Shown in pieces: positions 46,507 to 54,199 of a stretch of 64,000 nt of DNA. The DNA lies in the NCBI RefSeq assembly GCF_003149185.1, contig NZ_QGDO01000007.1:62001-126000 (forward strand), written 5' to 3'. The DNA comes from Sediminitomix flava (GTDB taxonomy: Bacteria; Bacteroidota; Bacteroidia; Cytophagales; Flammeovirgaceae). Each line of letters opens with the position of its first letter. Positions within the stretch are counted from its first letter, which is position 1. The notes under the pieces are model-generated. The model worked only from the letters and a program-made list of their open reading frames with translations, was not told where the DNA came from and ran no database searches. The position numbers and the translations under genes were made by a program.

Positions 46507-46530
46507 AAGCTAAAAGGTGCAATTTAGCTT
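46507..46530 (-). terminator. intrinsic terminator of the DUF6261 gene
   Basis: A perfect 8-bp stem (AAGCTAAA / TTTAGCTT) with an 8-base loop followed on the minus strand by TTTATA; its arm touches the stop codon. Confidence 0.6.
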
Positions 46531-47260
46531 AAGAAGCACCTATCTCATTTCTGGTTTCTCTACTCTGAATACGTGCACTGAAATCTTCATTGATCGCATT
46601 GATATTTTGAACCAAATCTTTGATTTCTTCAGACATAAACATATTAGCCGCTATTTCTAGACCAGTGAGTAATTTCATCATTTTCTCAAGCAAAACTTTA
46701 CGAAGTTCAATGGCACTTCCTACTGCTGCTTTCTCCGCTTTTTCTTCATACTTCTGCACATAAGCATCCATGAATTTCTGCTGACTAGCCTCCATAGCAG
46801 CAACTTTCTCTTCTAATTGAAATTCTGTTATCGCTTCTATGGCCTTTTCTTTGGTTCTCAAATCTTTCAATAAGCCATCCATTGCACTACTTTGTTTGAT
46901 ATATCCAAAAGCTTGGAGCGAATAACCATAGGTCTGTATCAGCAGTTCTAATTCGTCTAAGCTTCTGCTTTCGGCACCTCTCTGAACATAACGCAAGTGC
47001 TCTACATAAGAACGGAAGATTAAGAAATCATAGTCACGATCTTGGTCATAATCTCTGATCTCTTTTGTGATGACAGAAGCACCACTAGGTTTACTGACAG
47101 CGTCATAATCTGTCCATGCGGTGTTAAACGGATTTACATAGTTTTCTAGGTGATGCGTAGCGACATCAAAATCTTGGAACAGATTAAAATACATTTTTCC
47201 AATGGCTCTCGTTTCGTCTACAGTAAGATTATAACTTGGGATTGTTTTTACCTCTATCAT
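46529..47260 (-). CDS. DUF6261 family protein
   Basis: A 243-residue soluble, mostly helical protein. The opening IEVKTIPSYNLTVDETRAIG, the central DYDFLIFRSYVEHLRY and the C-terminal helix ARIQSRE resemble the Bacteroidota DUF6261 family, whose members often occur in several copies per genome. No enzyme motif. There is no signal peptide, so it is cytosolic. It is flanked by unusual inverted repeats on both sides (46394-46484 and 47412-47677). Family assignment is by pattern recognition. Confidence 0.65.
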   Translation of the reverse strand: MIEVKTIPSYNLTVDETRAIGKMYFNLFQDFDVATHHLENYVNPFNTAWTDYDAVSKPSGASVITKEIRDYDQDRDYDFLIFRSYVEHLRYVQRGAESRSLDELELLIQTYGYSLQAFGYIKQSSAMDGLLKDLRTKEKAIEAITEFQLEEKVAAMEASQQKFMDAYVQKYEEKAEKAAVGSAIELRKVLLEKMMKLLTGLEIAANMFMSEEIKDLVQNINAINEDFSARIQSRETRNEIGAS

Positions 47261-47411: not shown

Positions 47412-47677
47412 GCCTAAATATAGCCAGCCTACTAAAAAATAATTCTGACTAAGCCTAAATGTAGCCAAGTAGCCTTAGAAAAATTCTAAGCTAGGTTGGC
47501 TACATTTAGGGTTGTTCCCAAAAGATTTTTACTACAAAAAATACAGCCAAATCCATTTCTAAAAGTTTTTTAGCATGCTGGCTGTATTTAGCCCCACTAA
47601 AAATAATTCTGAGGTTACTTGGCTACGTTTTGCTGCCTAAAAAATTATTCATGGGTATGCTGGCTGGATTTATAAGC
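47412..47677. repeat. array of seven degenerate inverted-repeat arms (GCCTAAATGTAGCCA type)
   Basis: Forward arms: GCCTAAATATAGCCA (47412-47426), GCCTAAATGTAGCCA (47453-47467), AAATACAGCCA (47539-47549). Reverse arms: TGGCTACATTTAGG (47497-47510), TGGCTGTATTTAGCC (47579-47593), TGGCTACGTTTTG (47620-47632), TGGCTGGATTTATAAGC (47661-47677). Two pairs form complete hairpins, 47453-47510 and 47539-47590. A spacer ACTAAAAA(A)TAATTCTGA recurs at 47431 and 47596. No reading frame covers it. Confidence 0.75.
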
Positions 47678-47844: not shown

Positions 47845-48735
47845 CTAAGAATCAAATCTTTCTTTCAAATAAGCAACAGCTTTTGCGTTAGCATCTTGTG
47901 CGTCTTTTTCCACATATCTAGGGCTAGAAGGATTCGCAAAAGCGTGATCTGCATCTTCGTACATTTCTATTTGGCAACCTTTGTCAAGGCTTTTCATACT
48001 TTCCTCAAATTTACCAACCACTTCTGGAGTAATCCATTTGTCTTTAGCTGCAAAAATACCCAATACATCAGAGTTTAGGCCTTTCAATTTACTGGCATCT
48101 GTTTCGGGCATTCCGTAATATATTACACAGCCTACCGTTTGTTTTTTAGCCAATAGTGCAGACTGTAAAGACCATCCGCCACCAAAACACCAACCAATCG
48201 TAGCTATTTCAGCCTTCTTTCCAGCGTATTTTATCGCTCCTTCTACAATGGCTTGCCCTCTTTCTTTAGAGACCGAACGCATATATTTACCAGCATCTTC
48301 TCTTGTAGTGGCTACTTTTCCATCATAAATATCTAAGGCAATCACATTTACATCTTTCAAGGCTTTAGCAAGTGTTTCTGCTTCAGCTTTAATATGATCA
48401 TTCAAGCCCCACCATTCATGAATCACAAAAAGGTATTTGTCAGAAGCTTGAGCGGATTTGATCAGGTAAGCGTTGGCTTCGCCTCCACCTTTTACTGTGT
48501 AAGTAATCATTTCGCCTGTACCTTCAGTTGTAATAGCTCTTGGTAGCTCATGAGCCATACGAAAGTCCTTGTCCTCTGTCAGTGTCGCAAAGTTGTCAAT
48601 CGCCTCATAATTACCATGACAGTACACACCTACATTAGAAGGAGTGATGTAGCCATTATCTGTTGGTTTGAGAACAAAAGCGGTAATCAGAAGACTTGAA
48701 CATAAGCCTAGGATCAGTAGTGATAGTTTTTTCAT
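47845..48735 (-). CDS. dienelactone hydrolase family protein, exported
   Basis: A 296-residue alpha/beta hydrolase of the dienelactone hydrolase family. An N-terminal hydrophobic segment (KKLSLLILGLCSSLLITAFVL) suggests export or membrane anchoring. HEWWGLNDHIKAEAETLA, the cysteine nucleophile in IGWCFGGGWS, the acid in AAKDKWITP and the His in DADHAFANPS form the typical Cys-Asp-His triad. The physiological ester is unknown. It is a single gene with its own terminator. Confidence 0.9.
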   Translation of the reverse strand: MKKLSLLILGLCSSLLITAFVLKPTDNGYITPSNVGVYCHGNYEAIDNFATLTEDKDFRMAHELPRAITTEGTGEMITYTVKGGGEANAYLIKSAQASDKYLFVIHEWWGLNDHIKAEAETLAKALKDVNVIALDIYDGKVATTREDAGKYMRSVSKERGQAIVEGAIKYAGKKAEIATIGWCFGGGWSLQSALLAKKQTVGCVIYYGMPETDASKLKGLNSDVLGIFAAKDKWITPEVVGKFEESMKSLDKGCQIEMYEDADHAFANPSSPRYVEKDAQDANAKAVAYLKERFDS

Positions 48736-49117: not shown

Positions 49118-52100
49118 ATGAAAAATGTTTTACAAAGCTGCCTAACGTTACTACTCGTCATAGGTTTTCATTTATACACACTAGCACAAAGTTTTGACTA
49201 CGGAAATGGTAAGACATCCCTAATCATTGGTCAGACTTTCCAACAAGAATACATTGATTATATCAATGGCATCGGTACTGCACCTGCAGGTTCTTCACAT
49301 TACGCCGAATTGTATTCGGGTACCATCAACCAAGGCGATGACGGCGTAAATTTTGATGATTCGTCACCGTATTTAACATGGGTAAATGACAATTATCCAG
49401 GAGCAACAATTCTGATAGCTATAAGCATCAAAGATAATCCGGGTGCTGGAGGATATGGTGAATTGAATCCGAATAGCTCAAATTATGATCCTAATGGGGT
49501 GTATAAAGCGACCAAGGATATCGCTTACACAACTAAATGGGATGCGGAGATTGCTCAATTGGCAAATAAGTTTAAGTCTTTCCCCAACCTTAAATTTATG
49601 GTCAGATTGGGTTATGAAGTCAGTCTTTTGGCTATGGGAAATGCTGCTGAAGGAATGGAATTTGGCGATGTTTTGAACATCTACAATGACCAAGGCGTGA
49701 ATATCTATGATTTACCGAAAGAAGAATTTTATAATACGGTTTCAAAAGATCATATTGATGTTGATGCCTTTCCAGATGCTTACAATAAAATGGCTCAGAT
49801 CATCAGAGAGCAGGAAGGAGCTACAAATGTGAAGTTTGTCTATCATCCTGTTCGTGGTTTTGGAGAGGTGAAATTGCTTTATCCTGGCGATGAATACGTC
49901 GATTATATTGCTTTCTCGATCTTTAACCATGACATTTCTATGGGTACTGATGAGTCGATTCAAGTCATTCGTGAAATTGGTTCGAATGGTTCTCGACTGG
50001 ACGGAAATCTAGAACAAAGTTTGGATTGGTCTACGGCTAAAAAGCCAGTGATTATCGCTGAATCGGCCTATCAGAATGCCCCTGCCGAGTGGAAAGACTA
50101 TATTTCTTCTCCATATGACAATCCCTTTATTGAATATTTAGATCGTCTGTTGGAAGTCGTAGAAAACTATGATATCCGTTCGTTGGCCTATATCAATTCA
50201 GATTGGCAATCACATGGTTGGCCAGAACAATGGGCTGATTCTAGAGTTGAAGCTTTTGCTGATGTAAAAGCGTATTGGATGGAAAATGTCATCAATAACT
50301 CTCGCTATGTGCAATATAATGGGCAGTCTCCAGAACCATCATGTGCAGATGGAATTCAGAATGGCGATGAAACAGGTATTGATTGTGGAGGTTCTTGTGC
50401 ACCTTGTGATCCAGTTTCAGAGACAGTTCCGAATACACCATCGGCTTTGGTGAGTACTTCAAAGTCTGCAGATGAAATTACGCTGTCTTGGACAGATAAT
50501 TCAGATAATGAAGACGGTTTTTATGTAACTAGAAATGGTGTGCAATATGCCACGATTGCCCCAAATACAACTTCGTTTACTGATACAGGACTTAGCGCAT
50601 CAACTACTTACACCTATCAAATAAAAGCTTATAATGCCGAAGGGAATTCAGCAAATAGTAATTCTGTAGCTATTACTACAGATGACATATCAACACCTCC
50701 ACCAAGTAATAATTGCCCAACTTCTCATCCTTATGAAGCATGCGGAAATTGTTGGGAAAATGCTGCACAAGCTGAAAGTGCAGGTTGTACTGAAGATCCA
50801 AATACAGGGAACCCTGATAATGGGGAAACGACGCCTCCTGCAAGTAGTAATTGTCCATCATCTCACCCTTATGAGGCTTGTGGGCAATGTTGGGAAGATG
50901 GGCAACAAGCAGCGAGTAGTGGTTGCACAGAGACACCTGAAGAACCAGTAGAAACAGCTCCTAATACACCATCGGGATTATCTGCATCAGTTAATGGTAC
51001 ATCAGTAACAGTGAGATGGAATAGCGTAAGCAATGCTGATTCATATACACTTAAATACGGTACGGCATCTCAGTCTTACAGTCAAACTCTTAACGGTCTG
51101 ACGGGAACGAGCAGAACTATTTCAAATCTGCAAGAACTTACTACTTATTATTTCACAGTAAATGCAGTGAATAGTGTGGGTAGTAGTGCCGATGCTTCAG
51201 AAGTTTCTGCTTTTGTAGACAGTACAGCTACAACGCCTCCCGATGAAACAAACCCTCCAGTAGATGGAAATGAAGATGGCAAAGCTAAAGCTAAATTTAC
51301 AGCGAGTACAGGACAAACGCTTTTAATTTTAGGGCAAGATCTTGGATCAGTTGCTGGTTATGTGAATAGTGGGAAATTCCCAGAAATAGGAGGTGTCACG
51401 CAATACACGAATATCTATGATTTGGCAGGTTTGGAAACCACAACAAACTATGGTGCTGGAGATTTGTGTCTACAATGTGCTTTAGATAGCTATCCAAATT
51501 CTACCTTATCTATTGGTTTGTATATGGTAGAAGACAATGACGGAAAAGGAAACCCTGACCGATTAGGTAGAATTGACCATCCGAATGGTTTAACGGACAT
51601 TGTAAATGGTCTTTATGACATAGAATTGCAACGAATAGCTGATTTCTTCAATAACAATGCTGATCGTCCAATTTTCTTAAGAATTGGCTATGAGTTTGAT
51701 GGTGAATGGAATCACTACGAGCCAAGTAAATACATTGCTGCATATAAGTATTTAGTTGATTATATGAATGCTCAAAATGTAGAAAATGTCGCTTACGTTT
51801 GGCAATCGGCAACTTATGGAACTACTTACAATGGCTTGCCAATTAGTAGCTGGTATCCGGGAGATGCTTATGTAGATTATTTAGGACTTTCATTCTTCTT
51901 CTTTGATGAAGGTTTCAATGGCCCAAATCTTAATTATATGCTTGATTTGGCTAGAGAAAAGCAGATTCCAATCATGATGGCTGAAGTATCGGCTCAGTAT
52001 TATGATCTAGAGCTAGGGTTATTCCATCCATACAACAGTCTGGCGAATCCAACAGCTATGACTGGTGAAGAAATTTGGAATCAGTATTGGGTTGATCAAC

Positions 52101-54199
52101 TTTTACCATTTATCCATAACAATGAAGATGTGATTCGTTCTGTGGCTTATATCAATGCCGATTGGCAATCACAAGAAATGTGGAGATGGCCAGATGCTGG
52201 AAATGGTTTTTGGGGAGATACTCGTATTGAAACCAATGATTATGTAAGTCAACAATGGGCTGCAGAATTGGCAAAAGACTCTTGGATTCATGGTTCAGAA
52301 AATCTTTTTGCAATCCTAAAAGGCGACACAACAGGTACTGTACCGAATTCACCTACAGGATTAAATGCTTCTGCAAGTGGCAATACAATAAGTTTATCTT
52401 GGAATGAGGTTTCTAACGCTGATAGTTATACGGTGAGCTATGGAACAAGTAGTGGTGTTTATACTACTGCTAAAAATGTAAATTCGACTTCTACAAGTAT
52501 ATCAAACTTATTTGAAGGCACTACTTATTACTTTGTGGTTTCTGCTTCAAATTCAGTAGGTGAAAGTAATCCTTCTTCACAAGTTAGTGCTACGACAGAA
52601 ACGGGAGTTACGCCTCCACCTCCATCAGATAAGATTGAGGGGAAATTTACACCAGCAGATGGCAAGACACTTCTAGCGATTGGCCAAGATTTATTCTCTT
52701 TAGCTGGTTATAGATATGGAGATGTGATGCCAGATACTTATGATTTTGGTCTACAAGCAGGAGAGGGCGGAATGCCAGAACCAGGAGCAGCAGTAGCTTA
52801 TATTGCCTTCTACATGCTAACCTTAGATCAATATGGTATCAATTACGGTGCTACAGGTATGGATAATGGCGGTAATTTAACCGGTGTAGATACTGATTGG
52901 GGAGCTGGTCCTTTGAATGCTGCAAGTGTAGCGGACGGTTGGGATCATTCGGCACTGATCATGGCTATGTCTATCACTGAAAACTGGAACTTGAATGGAC
53001 TGCAAGGAATTGCAAATGGACAGTATGAAGCAAATATTGATAAGCTTGCTTTATTCTGTAATTCATATCCGAATAAGAAAATCTATTTACGTATAGGTTA
53101 TGAATTCGAAGGACGTTGGAATTCTGAAGATACAGCAGGTGGAGATTATCCGGGTGGTTATCACAAACAAGAAGAATACAAAGCTGCGTGGAGACATATA
53201 GTAGAAGGAATGCGTAGTAGAGGCGTTACGAATGTGGCTTATGTATGGCAGGCAAGTGCTTCTCCTGTAGATGATGTATTGGATGCTCAATTTGCACATG
53301 GAGGTGATTTGGCTGCCGCTCGTGAAGATATTACAGGATGGTATCCCGGAGATGATGTGGTTGATTGGTTTGGTATTTCTTGGTTCATTGCACCACAAGA
53401 AGCTGATGATTTCTTTGGATTTAATGATGTTCCTAATCTTCCGAACCAAGATGATTTGGCAAATGAAATGCTAGCTTTTGCCCGTGAGCGTAACAAGCCA
53501 GTAATGATTGCAGAATCAACTCCACAAGGCTATGACCTTGAAATCAGTGAGTATGACAATACACCATCCATGGTTTCTAGAGCTGCAACAGGTTGGACTT
53601 ACGAAGGTGCTCAGACTTTGTTTACTGAAGGCTTAGCTGCTGCGGAAGAACAATTTGCTCCGGGTACTTGGTTTGATAATTTCTCAGCGGAAACAGCTTG
53701 GAACAGGTGGTACGAACCATTCTTAAATTACATTTATGACAACCAAGATGTGATTCGTGCTGTGACCTATATCAATGCCGATTGGAATCAGCAAAGTAAA
53801 TGGGCTTCTCCATACAATGAAGGCTATTGGGGAGATACACGTGTGGAAGCAAATACAGTTATCAAATCGAAATGGTTAGAAGAAACAAATAAAGATTTCT
53901 GGCTTCTAGGTTCTACAGATATCAGCTCTAAATTGCTAGATGCTCCAGCTGCACGTCAAGCAATACAAAAGATCCAAGATTTGGAAGAAGGAAATGATAT
54001 TTTATTGTTCCCCAACCCTGTGAAGACAGTATTAAATGTTAGTAATTCAGAAACTGTTTCTACACTCACTGTATTTAATCTTCAAGGAAAATTAATGTTA
54101 AAAGGAAATGGAAACAGTATTGATGTTTCTCATCTGAGTAGTGGCGTTTATGTTATTAAAATAGATAACGAACAACCGCAATTATTTATTAAAGAATAA
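49118..54199 (+). CDS. T9SS-exported multidomain protein with three GH26-like glycosidase domains
   Basis: A 1,693-residue secreted protein. Order: signal peptide (1-24); catalytic-like domain 1 (about 27-403); Cys motif CADGIQNGDETGIDCGG (408-431); FN3 (about 438-524); two short Cys repeats HPYEACGxCW (532-557, 578-603); FN3 (614-700); catalytic-like domain 2 (725-1065); FN3 (1075-1160); catalytic-like domain 3 (1172-1605); T9SS type A sorting domain (1627-1693, LFPNPVKTVLNVS and GVYVIKI). Candidate catalytic glutamates are E167/E315, E859/E956 and E1329/E1466, in R-[IL]-GYE and [IM]AE contexts, with YPGDxYVD between. This resembles GH26 beta-mannanases only distantly. Domain 1 lacks the WN after GYE and is the most divergent. 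It probably degrades an algal or plant polysaccharide at the cell surface. Confidence 0.8.
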   Translation: MKNVLQSCLTLLLVIGFHLYTLAQSFDYGNGKTSLIIGQTFQQEYIDYINGIGTAPAGSSHYAELYSGTINQGDDGVNFDDSSPYLTWVNDNYPGATILIAISIKDNPGAGGYGELNPNSSNYDPNGVYKATKDIAYTTKWDAEIAQLANKFKSFPNLKFMVRLGYEVSLLAMGNAAEGMEFGDVLNIYNDQGVNIYDLPKEEFYNTVSKDHIDVDAFPDAYNKMAQIIREQEGATNVKFVYHPVRGFGEVKLLYPGDEYVDYIAFSIFNHDISMGTDESIQVIREIGSNGSRLDGNLEQSLDWSTAKKPVIIAESAYQNAPAEWKDYISSPYDNPFIEYLDRLLEVVENYDIRSLAYINSDWQSHGWPEQWADSRVEAFADVKAYWMENVINNSRYVQYNGQSPEPSCADGIQNGDETGIDCGGSCAPCDPVSETVPNTPSALVSTSKSADEITLSWTDNSDNEDGFYVTRNGVQYATIAPNTTSFTDTGLSASTTYTYQIKAYNAEGNSANSNSVAITTDDISTPPPSNNCPTSHPYEACGNCWENAAQAESAGCTEDPNTGNPDNGETTPPASSNCPSSHPYEACGQCWEDGQQAASSGCTETPEEPVETAPNTPSGLSASVNGTSVTVRWNSVSNADSYTLKYGTASQSYSQTLNGLTGTSRTISNLQELTTYYFTVNAVNSVGSSADASEVSAFVDSTATTPPDETNPPVDGNEDGKAKAKFTASTGQTLLILGQDLGSVAGYVNSGKFPEIGGVTQYTNIYDLAGLETTTNYGAGDLCLQCALDSYPNSTLSIGLYMVEDNDGKGNPDRLGRIDHPNGLTDIVNGLYDIELQRIADFFNNNADRPIFLRIGYEFDGEWNHYEPSKYIAAYKYLVDYMNAQNVENVAYVWQSATYGTTYNGLPISSWYPGDAYVDYLGLSFFFFDEGFNGPNLNYMLDLAREKQIPIMMAEVSAQYYDLELGLFHPYNSLANPTAMTGEEIWNQYWVDQLLPFIHNNEDVIRSVAYINADWQSQEMWRWPDAGNGFWGDTRIETNDYVSQQWAAELAKDSWIHGSENLFAILKGDTTGTVPNSPTGLNASASGNTISLSWNEVSNADSYTVSYGTSSGVYTTAKNVNSTSTSISNLFEGTTYYFVVSASNSVGESNPSSQVSATTETGVTPPPPSDKIEGKFTPADGKTLLAIGQDLFSLAGYRYGDVMPDTYDFGLQAGEGGMPEPGAAVAYIAFYMLTLDQYGINYGATGMDNGGNLTGVDTDWGAGPLNAASVADGWDHSALIMAMSITENWNLNGLQGIANGQYEANIDKLALFCNSYPNKKIYLRIGYEFEGRWNSEDTAGGDYPGGYHKQEEYKAAWRHIVEGMRSRGVTNVAYVWQASASPVDDVLDAQFAHGGDLAAAREDITGWYPGDDVVDWFGISWFIAPQEADDFFGFNDVPNLPNQDDLANEMLAFARERNKPVMIAESTPQGYDLEISEYDNTPSMVSRAATGWTYEGAQTLFTEGLAAAEEQFAPGTWFDNFSAETAWNRWYEPFLNYIYDNQDVIRAVTYINADWNQQSKWASPYNEGYWGDTRVEANTVIKSKWLEETNKDFWLLGSTDISSKLLDAPAARQAIQKIQDLEEGNDILLFPNPVKTVLNVSNSETVSTLTVFNLQGKLMLKGNGNSIDVSHLSSGVYVIKIDNEQPQLFIKE

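Follow-up and report, generated by a model that had tools for sequence, protein, structure and literature searches.

Four chromosomal arrays in Sediminitomix flava place a 12-bp motif on a strand-independent 41-bp lattice: candidate phased binding sites

Results

We analyzed a repeat array at positions 47412-47677 of a 64,000-nucleotide stretch of the Sediminitomix flava genome (hereafter the window; contig NZ_QGDO01000007.1). The array is built on a lattice: copies of a conserved motif recur every 41 bp, on either strand, with an A/T tract midway between them, and exactly four such arrays are present in the genome. The motif and the tract are conserved among the units and the spacing is nearly perfect. 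At about even confidence, we interpret the arrays as helically phased binding sites for a putative DNA-binding or chromosome-organizing protein that would tolerate either site orientation.

Seven motifs occupy consecutive positions of a 41-bp lattice

When the 12-bp core motif TAAATRYAGCCA was scored on both strands, starts were found at 47415+, 47456+, 47497-, 47538+, 47579-, 47620- and 47661-. This agrees with the original prediction, made from the window sequence, of three forward and four reverse copies. The same prediction described the spacing as uneven, which is wrong, since the step between successive motif starts is 41 bp exactly, irrespective of strand. Motifs in this array flip about their own centers and retain their lattice positions. 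The shared spacer that had been predicted is present as an A/T tract, roughly CTNARAATWATTYTNAG, and the two predicted hairpins are formed by the head-to-head pairs 47456/47497 and 47538/47579. For the tract scores below, the 99th percentile of random 29-mers is 2.7.

47412-47677, three forward and four reverse: whole array of seven degenerate motif copies, confirmed
47415..47426, + strand: motif 1, TAAATATAGCCA, on the 41-bp lattice
47433..47449, no strand: A/T tract midway between motifs 1 and 2, score 12.5
47456..47467, + strand: motif 2, TAAATGTAGCCA, on the lattice
47474..47490, no strand: A/T tract midway between motifs 2 and 3, score 12.0, palindromic CTTAGAAAAATTCTAAG
47497..47508, - strand: motif 3, TAAATGTAGCCA read on the - strand, on the lattice
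47515..47531, no strand: weak A/T tract between the tail-to-tail motifs 3 and 4, score 3.3
47538..47549, + strand: motif 4, AAAATACAGCCA; the variant and its left neighbor ACAA are the same as in unit 3 of array A3 (L017)
47556..47572, no strand: A/T tract between motifs 4 and 5, score 3.9
47579..47590, - strand: motif 5, TAAATACAGCCA
47597..47613, no strand: A/T tract between motifs 5 and 6, score 16.6
47620..47631, - strand: motif 6, AAAACGTAGCCA
47638..47654, no strand: A/T tract between motifs 6 and 7, score 10.1
47661..47672, - strand: motif 7, TAAATCCAGCCA

The genome contains four arrays and no solo units

Searches of the whole genome with two profiles (R1 and R2) recovered 25 units, all of them within four arrays, and no solo unit at E<0.1. 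This pattern fits a site that works only in arrays.

C7:109395-109692, mixed orientation: window array, between genes on one strand
C1:1710261-1710539, six units all +, plus a degenerate seventh: array A2, between convergent genes
C2:1054824-1055066, +-+---: array A3, between genes on one strand
C1:90399-90653, six units all -: array A4, between convergent genes

Two arrays are therefore mixed in orientation (window and A3) and two are uniform (A2 and A4); the uniform ones are head-to-tail tandem repeats and the mixed ones are not. The original prediction proposed that many dispersed copies would reveal a family of repetitive extragenic palindromes (REPs) or miniature inverted-repeat transposable elements (MITEs), and this check was negative. 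It also named two circumstances that together would tell against it, a lack of copies elsewhere and loss in near relatives. Only the second was found, as copies exist elsewhere in the genome and the relatives searched are without arrays.

We also scanned 878 kb (the window, the loci of the other three arrays and 800 kb from elsewhere in the genome), looking for 12-mers that contain four or more G or C and occupy at least four positions of a common lattice, irrespective of orientation. Four clusters appeared at period 41, and these are the four arrays; the 17 control periods gave none. Under looser settings, with every period between 21 and 129 considered, the only additions were a few small repeats, either coding-type or isolated. 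The rest of the 6.6-Mb genome was covered by motif-based patterns and profiles only, so lattices of other motifs could exist there. Across the genome, the two-unit pattern TAAANNNAGCCA-29N-TAAANNNAGCCA gave 11 matches versus 0 for a reversed-pattern control. Separately, a direct repeat of 21-bp period, about 350 bp long and probably coding, lies at L113:10243-10594 of the same genome.

Motif and spacing are conserved amid saturated columns

We compared pairwise the 19 units of the three old arrays (window, A2 and A3). Identity reaches 84% in the motif columns and 61% in the A/T tract (columns 18 to 25). In the flank columns that vary most, -7 to -2, it is 26% versus 28% expected from composition, indicating that these columns are saturated. 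Spacing is exactly 41 bp in 21 of the 22 intervals across the four arrays. Among intact units we counted 241 spacer substitutions and no insertions or deletions (indels), where assumed indel-to-substitution ratios of 0.03-0.1 would predict about 7 to 24. From these unit comparisons, a conserved motif and near-perfect spacing amid saturated columns point to selection on both. The original suggestion that the copies are old and constrained is thus supported, but what is constrained is the 41-bp spacing, not hairpin structure.

The A/T tract is found in every internal interval of the old arrays, with high scores in nearly all of them and lower ones in the two tail-to-tail intervals, and is mostly absent from their outer flanks. 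The tract therefore belongs between sites, and its presence in all internal intervals does not support a tract coupled to the right side of each motif.

The main rival, which we consider rather unlikely, is that the arrays are functionless old minisatellite-like repeats, in which tandem amplification of a 41-bp unit took place at four loci, some units became inverted, and all have been decaying since. Several observations are consistent with this. A4 looks like a fresh direct repeat, its units being 78-97% identical to each other when the end unit is left out, and this homogeneity suggests recent amplification. End units are the most decayed, and the arrays are restricted to one species. The window and A3 arrays also share their orientation pattern and variants, as if copied whole. 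However, simple decay would not hold the 12-bp core at 84% beside flanks at random identity, nor would it preserve indel-free spacing alongside slippage-prone A/T runs. It also leaves the common 41 bp at four loci unexplained.

Two mixed arrays probably share an origin

Without its first unit, the window array has the same +-+--- pattern as A3, the odd variant ACAAAAAATACAGCCA occurs at the corresponding position in each, and both carry a similar unusual AAARGAYTTT tract in a tail-to-tail interval. Judging from these shared features, the two are probably old copies of one mixed array. Their whole-array identity at the shared register is 53.8%; other registers give comparable values, with no standout.

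The flipping of units raises the possibility of a recombination-site array, in which quasi-palindromic A/T tracts would be crossover points that invert single units or blocks and keep the lattice. In-place flipping about unit centers with an intact lattice, the mixed orientation of two of the four arrays, and a mid-interval tract that is partly palindromic and occurs in all internal intervals of the old arrays are in agreement with this proposal. Yet the palindrome signal is modest (3.4 of 8 pairs in the middle versus about 1-3 elsewhere) and absent in the uniform A4, the two mixed arrays have one pattern in common, so that no flip is seen since they split, and no recombinase gene is beside the arrays among the listed genes. 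We consider this explanation improbable.

Folding is not shared by the arrays

The 41-bp lattice is common to mixed and uniform arrays, and strong folding occurs in the mixed ones only. The z-score is about -5.3 for the window array and -3.8 to -5.3 for A3. A4 folds moderately on one strand only (z -2.8), and A2 shows no folding beyond that of shuffled sequence, with z = 0.14 and -0.41 for the two strands. Given the A2 result, hairpins cannot be what the arrays have in common functionally, and we reject a hairpin or structured-RNA element in that role. Inversion of motifs can produce hairpins in arrays of this kind as a side effect.

These results bear on a REP-like or RNA-hairpin explanation, in which the arrays, like REPs or bacterial interspersed mosaic elements (BIMEs), would serve as transcription terminators, mRNA stabilizers or structured RNA. 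The strong folding of the mixed arrays favors it, as does their placement: all four arrays are intergenic and adjoin gene 3' ends, and none is between divergent genes. Against it, excess folding is lacking in A2 and confined to one strand in A4, the window has no Rfam match, and the unit is non-palindromic (a REP or BIME unit is a 20-40 bp palindrome) and low in copy number. REP-associated tyrosine transposases (RAYTs) belong to the Y1 transposase family. The genome has a single Y1 match, located about 755 kb away from the array that shares its contig, and no array is near it; within 1.5 kb of this match there is one motif-like match with 2 mismatches, which is chance level, and no close copy. 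We give this explanation little credence.

The arrays differ from known repeat systems

As originally predicted, the window array is neither an insertion sequence nor a clustered regularly interspaced short palindromic repeats (CRISPR) array. CRISPR arrays have near-identical direct repeats and unique spacers; here units lie on both strands and the "spacers" share an A/T tract. MITEs have terminal inverted repeats and many similar copies, whereas these arrays begin and end with motif units, and even the most similar of the old arrays are under 60% identical.

Phased arrays of the iteron or centromere type include plasmid iterons and parS-like or parC repeats. The arrays resemble them in having a short conserved motif repeated at regular, near-integral helical spacing in AT-rich DNA, over 250-300 bp in all. 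They differ in having four chromosomal copies with unrelated gene neighbors, in-place mixed orientation and a 41-bp period, and no Rep or Par gene was seen beside the arrays here.

REP/BIME clusters are similar in being intergenic with units in both orientations, but REPs are palindromic, GTAG/CGTC-tagged and abundant, unlike the non-palindromic, rare units on a fixed lattice described here (PMC3733652, PMC3116915). The BrickBuilt minisatellite-MITE of Porphyromonas gingivalis likewise consists of species-specific intergenic tandem repeats in a Bacteroidota genome; the arrays differ from it in their 41-bp period, lack of terminal repeats, four copies and units that flip orientation (PMC4596501). 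A literature search found nothing matching these arrays.

A MITE-like element of about 220 bp is situated directly left of A2 (L016:2040-2257; G000:C1:1710029-1710264). It has 20-bp terminal inverted repeats TAAGTACTAGGACAGATGAA and about 40 dispersed genome copies, many of them 69-88% identical.

Neighboring genes differ from array to array

Two genes flank the window array:

46529..47260, - strand: DUF6261 protein gene (243 amino acids; PF19775, E 1.1e-20), start codon about 155 bp from the array
47845..48735, - strand: dienelactone-hydrolase family gene (296 amino acids; PF01738, E 2e-30), 3' end facing the array

The neighbors of A2 are a nitroreductase gene and a GHMP kinase (homoserine kinase-like) gene, those of A3 encode an AraC regulator and a PfkB kinase, and those of A4 encode a thiamine pyrophosphate (TPP)/ferredoxin oxidoreductase and a pseudouridine synthase. 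The functional link to DUF6261 that the original prediction raised is not supported, since a DUF6261 gene neighbors only one of the four arrays.

The arrays might alternatively be a cooperative operator for one transcription factor, such as the AraC-family regulator encoded beside A3. Two arrays do lie about 130-155 bp upstream of gene starts (the DUF6261 gene and the AraC-family gene). The other two are between convergent genes, where no promoter of a flanking gene is expected, and the neighboring genes have no common function. We regard an operator as very improbable.

Further along the window, 49118-54199 (+) encodes a 1693-amino-acid protein that, from its translation, looks secreted and has three similar large domains with fibronectin-like linkers. 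Its C-terminal end resembles a type IX sorting domain.

Searches of relatives and other databases

The genus is represented by this genome alone. Profile R1 detected no array in 17 other genomes of the family or, with stricter filters, in a 390-genome sample of the order. Weak R1 matches in seven relatives (G001, G003, G005, G007 and G010-G012) are single motif-like matches with no lattice evident by eye. When 395 Bacteroidota genomes were searched for AGCCA occurring three times at 41 bp, arrays were found only in this genome, and seven others gave a single unrelated match. Scanned de novo for lattices, 0.8 Mb of the nearest relative (G017; SMC 60% identical) yielded no 41-bp array. The thrB loci of 16 relatives also contain none; G017 keeps the thrA-thrB gene pair, and the region downstream is without an array.

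Among GTDB species genomes, the exact two-unit pattern matched 32 stretches, which resemble chance pairs or, as in Flavobacterium difficile, short simple repeats, and lack the A/T tract. There were 0 matches in viral contigs, none in plasmids, and one short spurious match in phages. In G017, several near-identical copies about 200 bp apart (L190:9300-10080) resemble tRNA-Leu on the - strand, with the T-arm GGTTCGACTCC and a long middle part; ARAGORN calls no tRNA there.

Discussion

The simplest mechanism that would depend on spacing and not on strand is side-by-side protein binding on one face of the helix, with a flexible A/T link from site to site. We propose that each 12-bp motif would be one site for a DNA-binding protein encoded elsewhere. 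A recurrence of 41 bp, approximately four helical turns, would bring all sites close to a single face of the helix, and the intervening A/T tract, at the half-way point (20.5 bp, about two turns), may be a bendable link or a second contact. Several protomers could then line up next to one another, forming a single nucleoprotein complex that spans 250-290 bp. Such a complex might act as a nucleation point for chromosome organization, anchoring or segregation, or as a cooperative regulatory patch. Protein binding, helical phase as the target of selection, and the role of the complex are all inferred here.

Some observations weigh against phased docking sites. With a helical repeat of 10.5 bp, 41 bp corresponds to 3.9 turns, short of exactly 4. 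One interval is 40 bp, leading to the decayed outermost degenerate unit of A2. The genes flanking the four arrays share no function. The argument for selection compares units within one genome, and the arrays are absent from the relatives searched. Finally, the near-homogeneity of A4 means that a recent tandem amplification has also contributed.

More tentatively, the two-component lattice of a motif every 41 bp and a midway A/T tract could represent a site of nucleoprotein assembly, of a class new to chromosomes, in a Flammeovirgaceae-like bacterium. It would be read in both orientations by a putative protein with an architectural or segregation role, and recombination at the A/T tracts might have inverted some units. 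To our knowledge, chromosome organization in this phylum has been little studied. If the arrays are protein docking sites, they would reveal a new DNA-binding system in the phylum and would provide a clean case of selection on helix distance, rather than on hairpin structure or strand.
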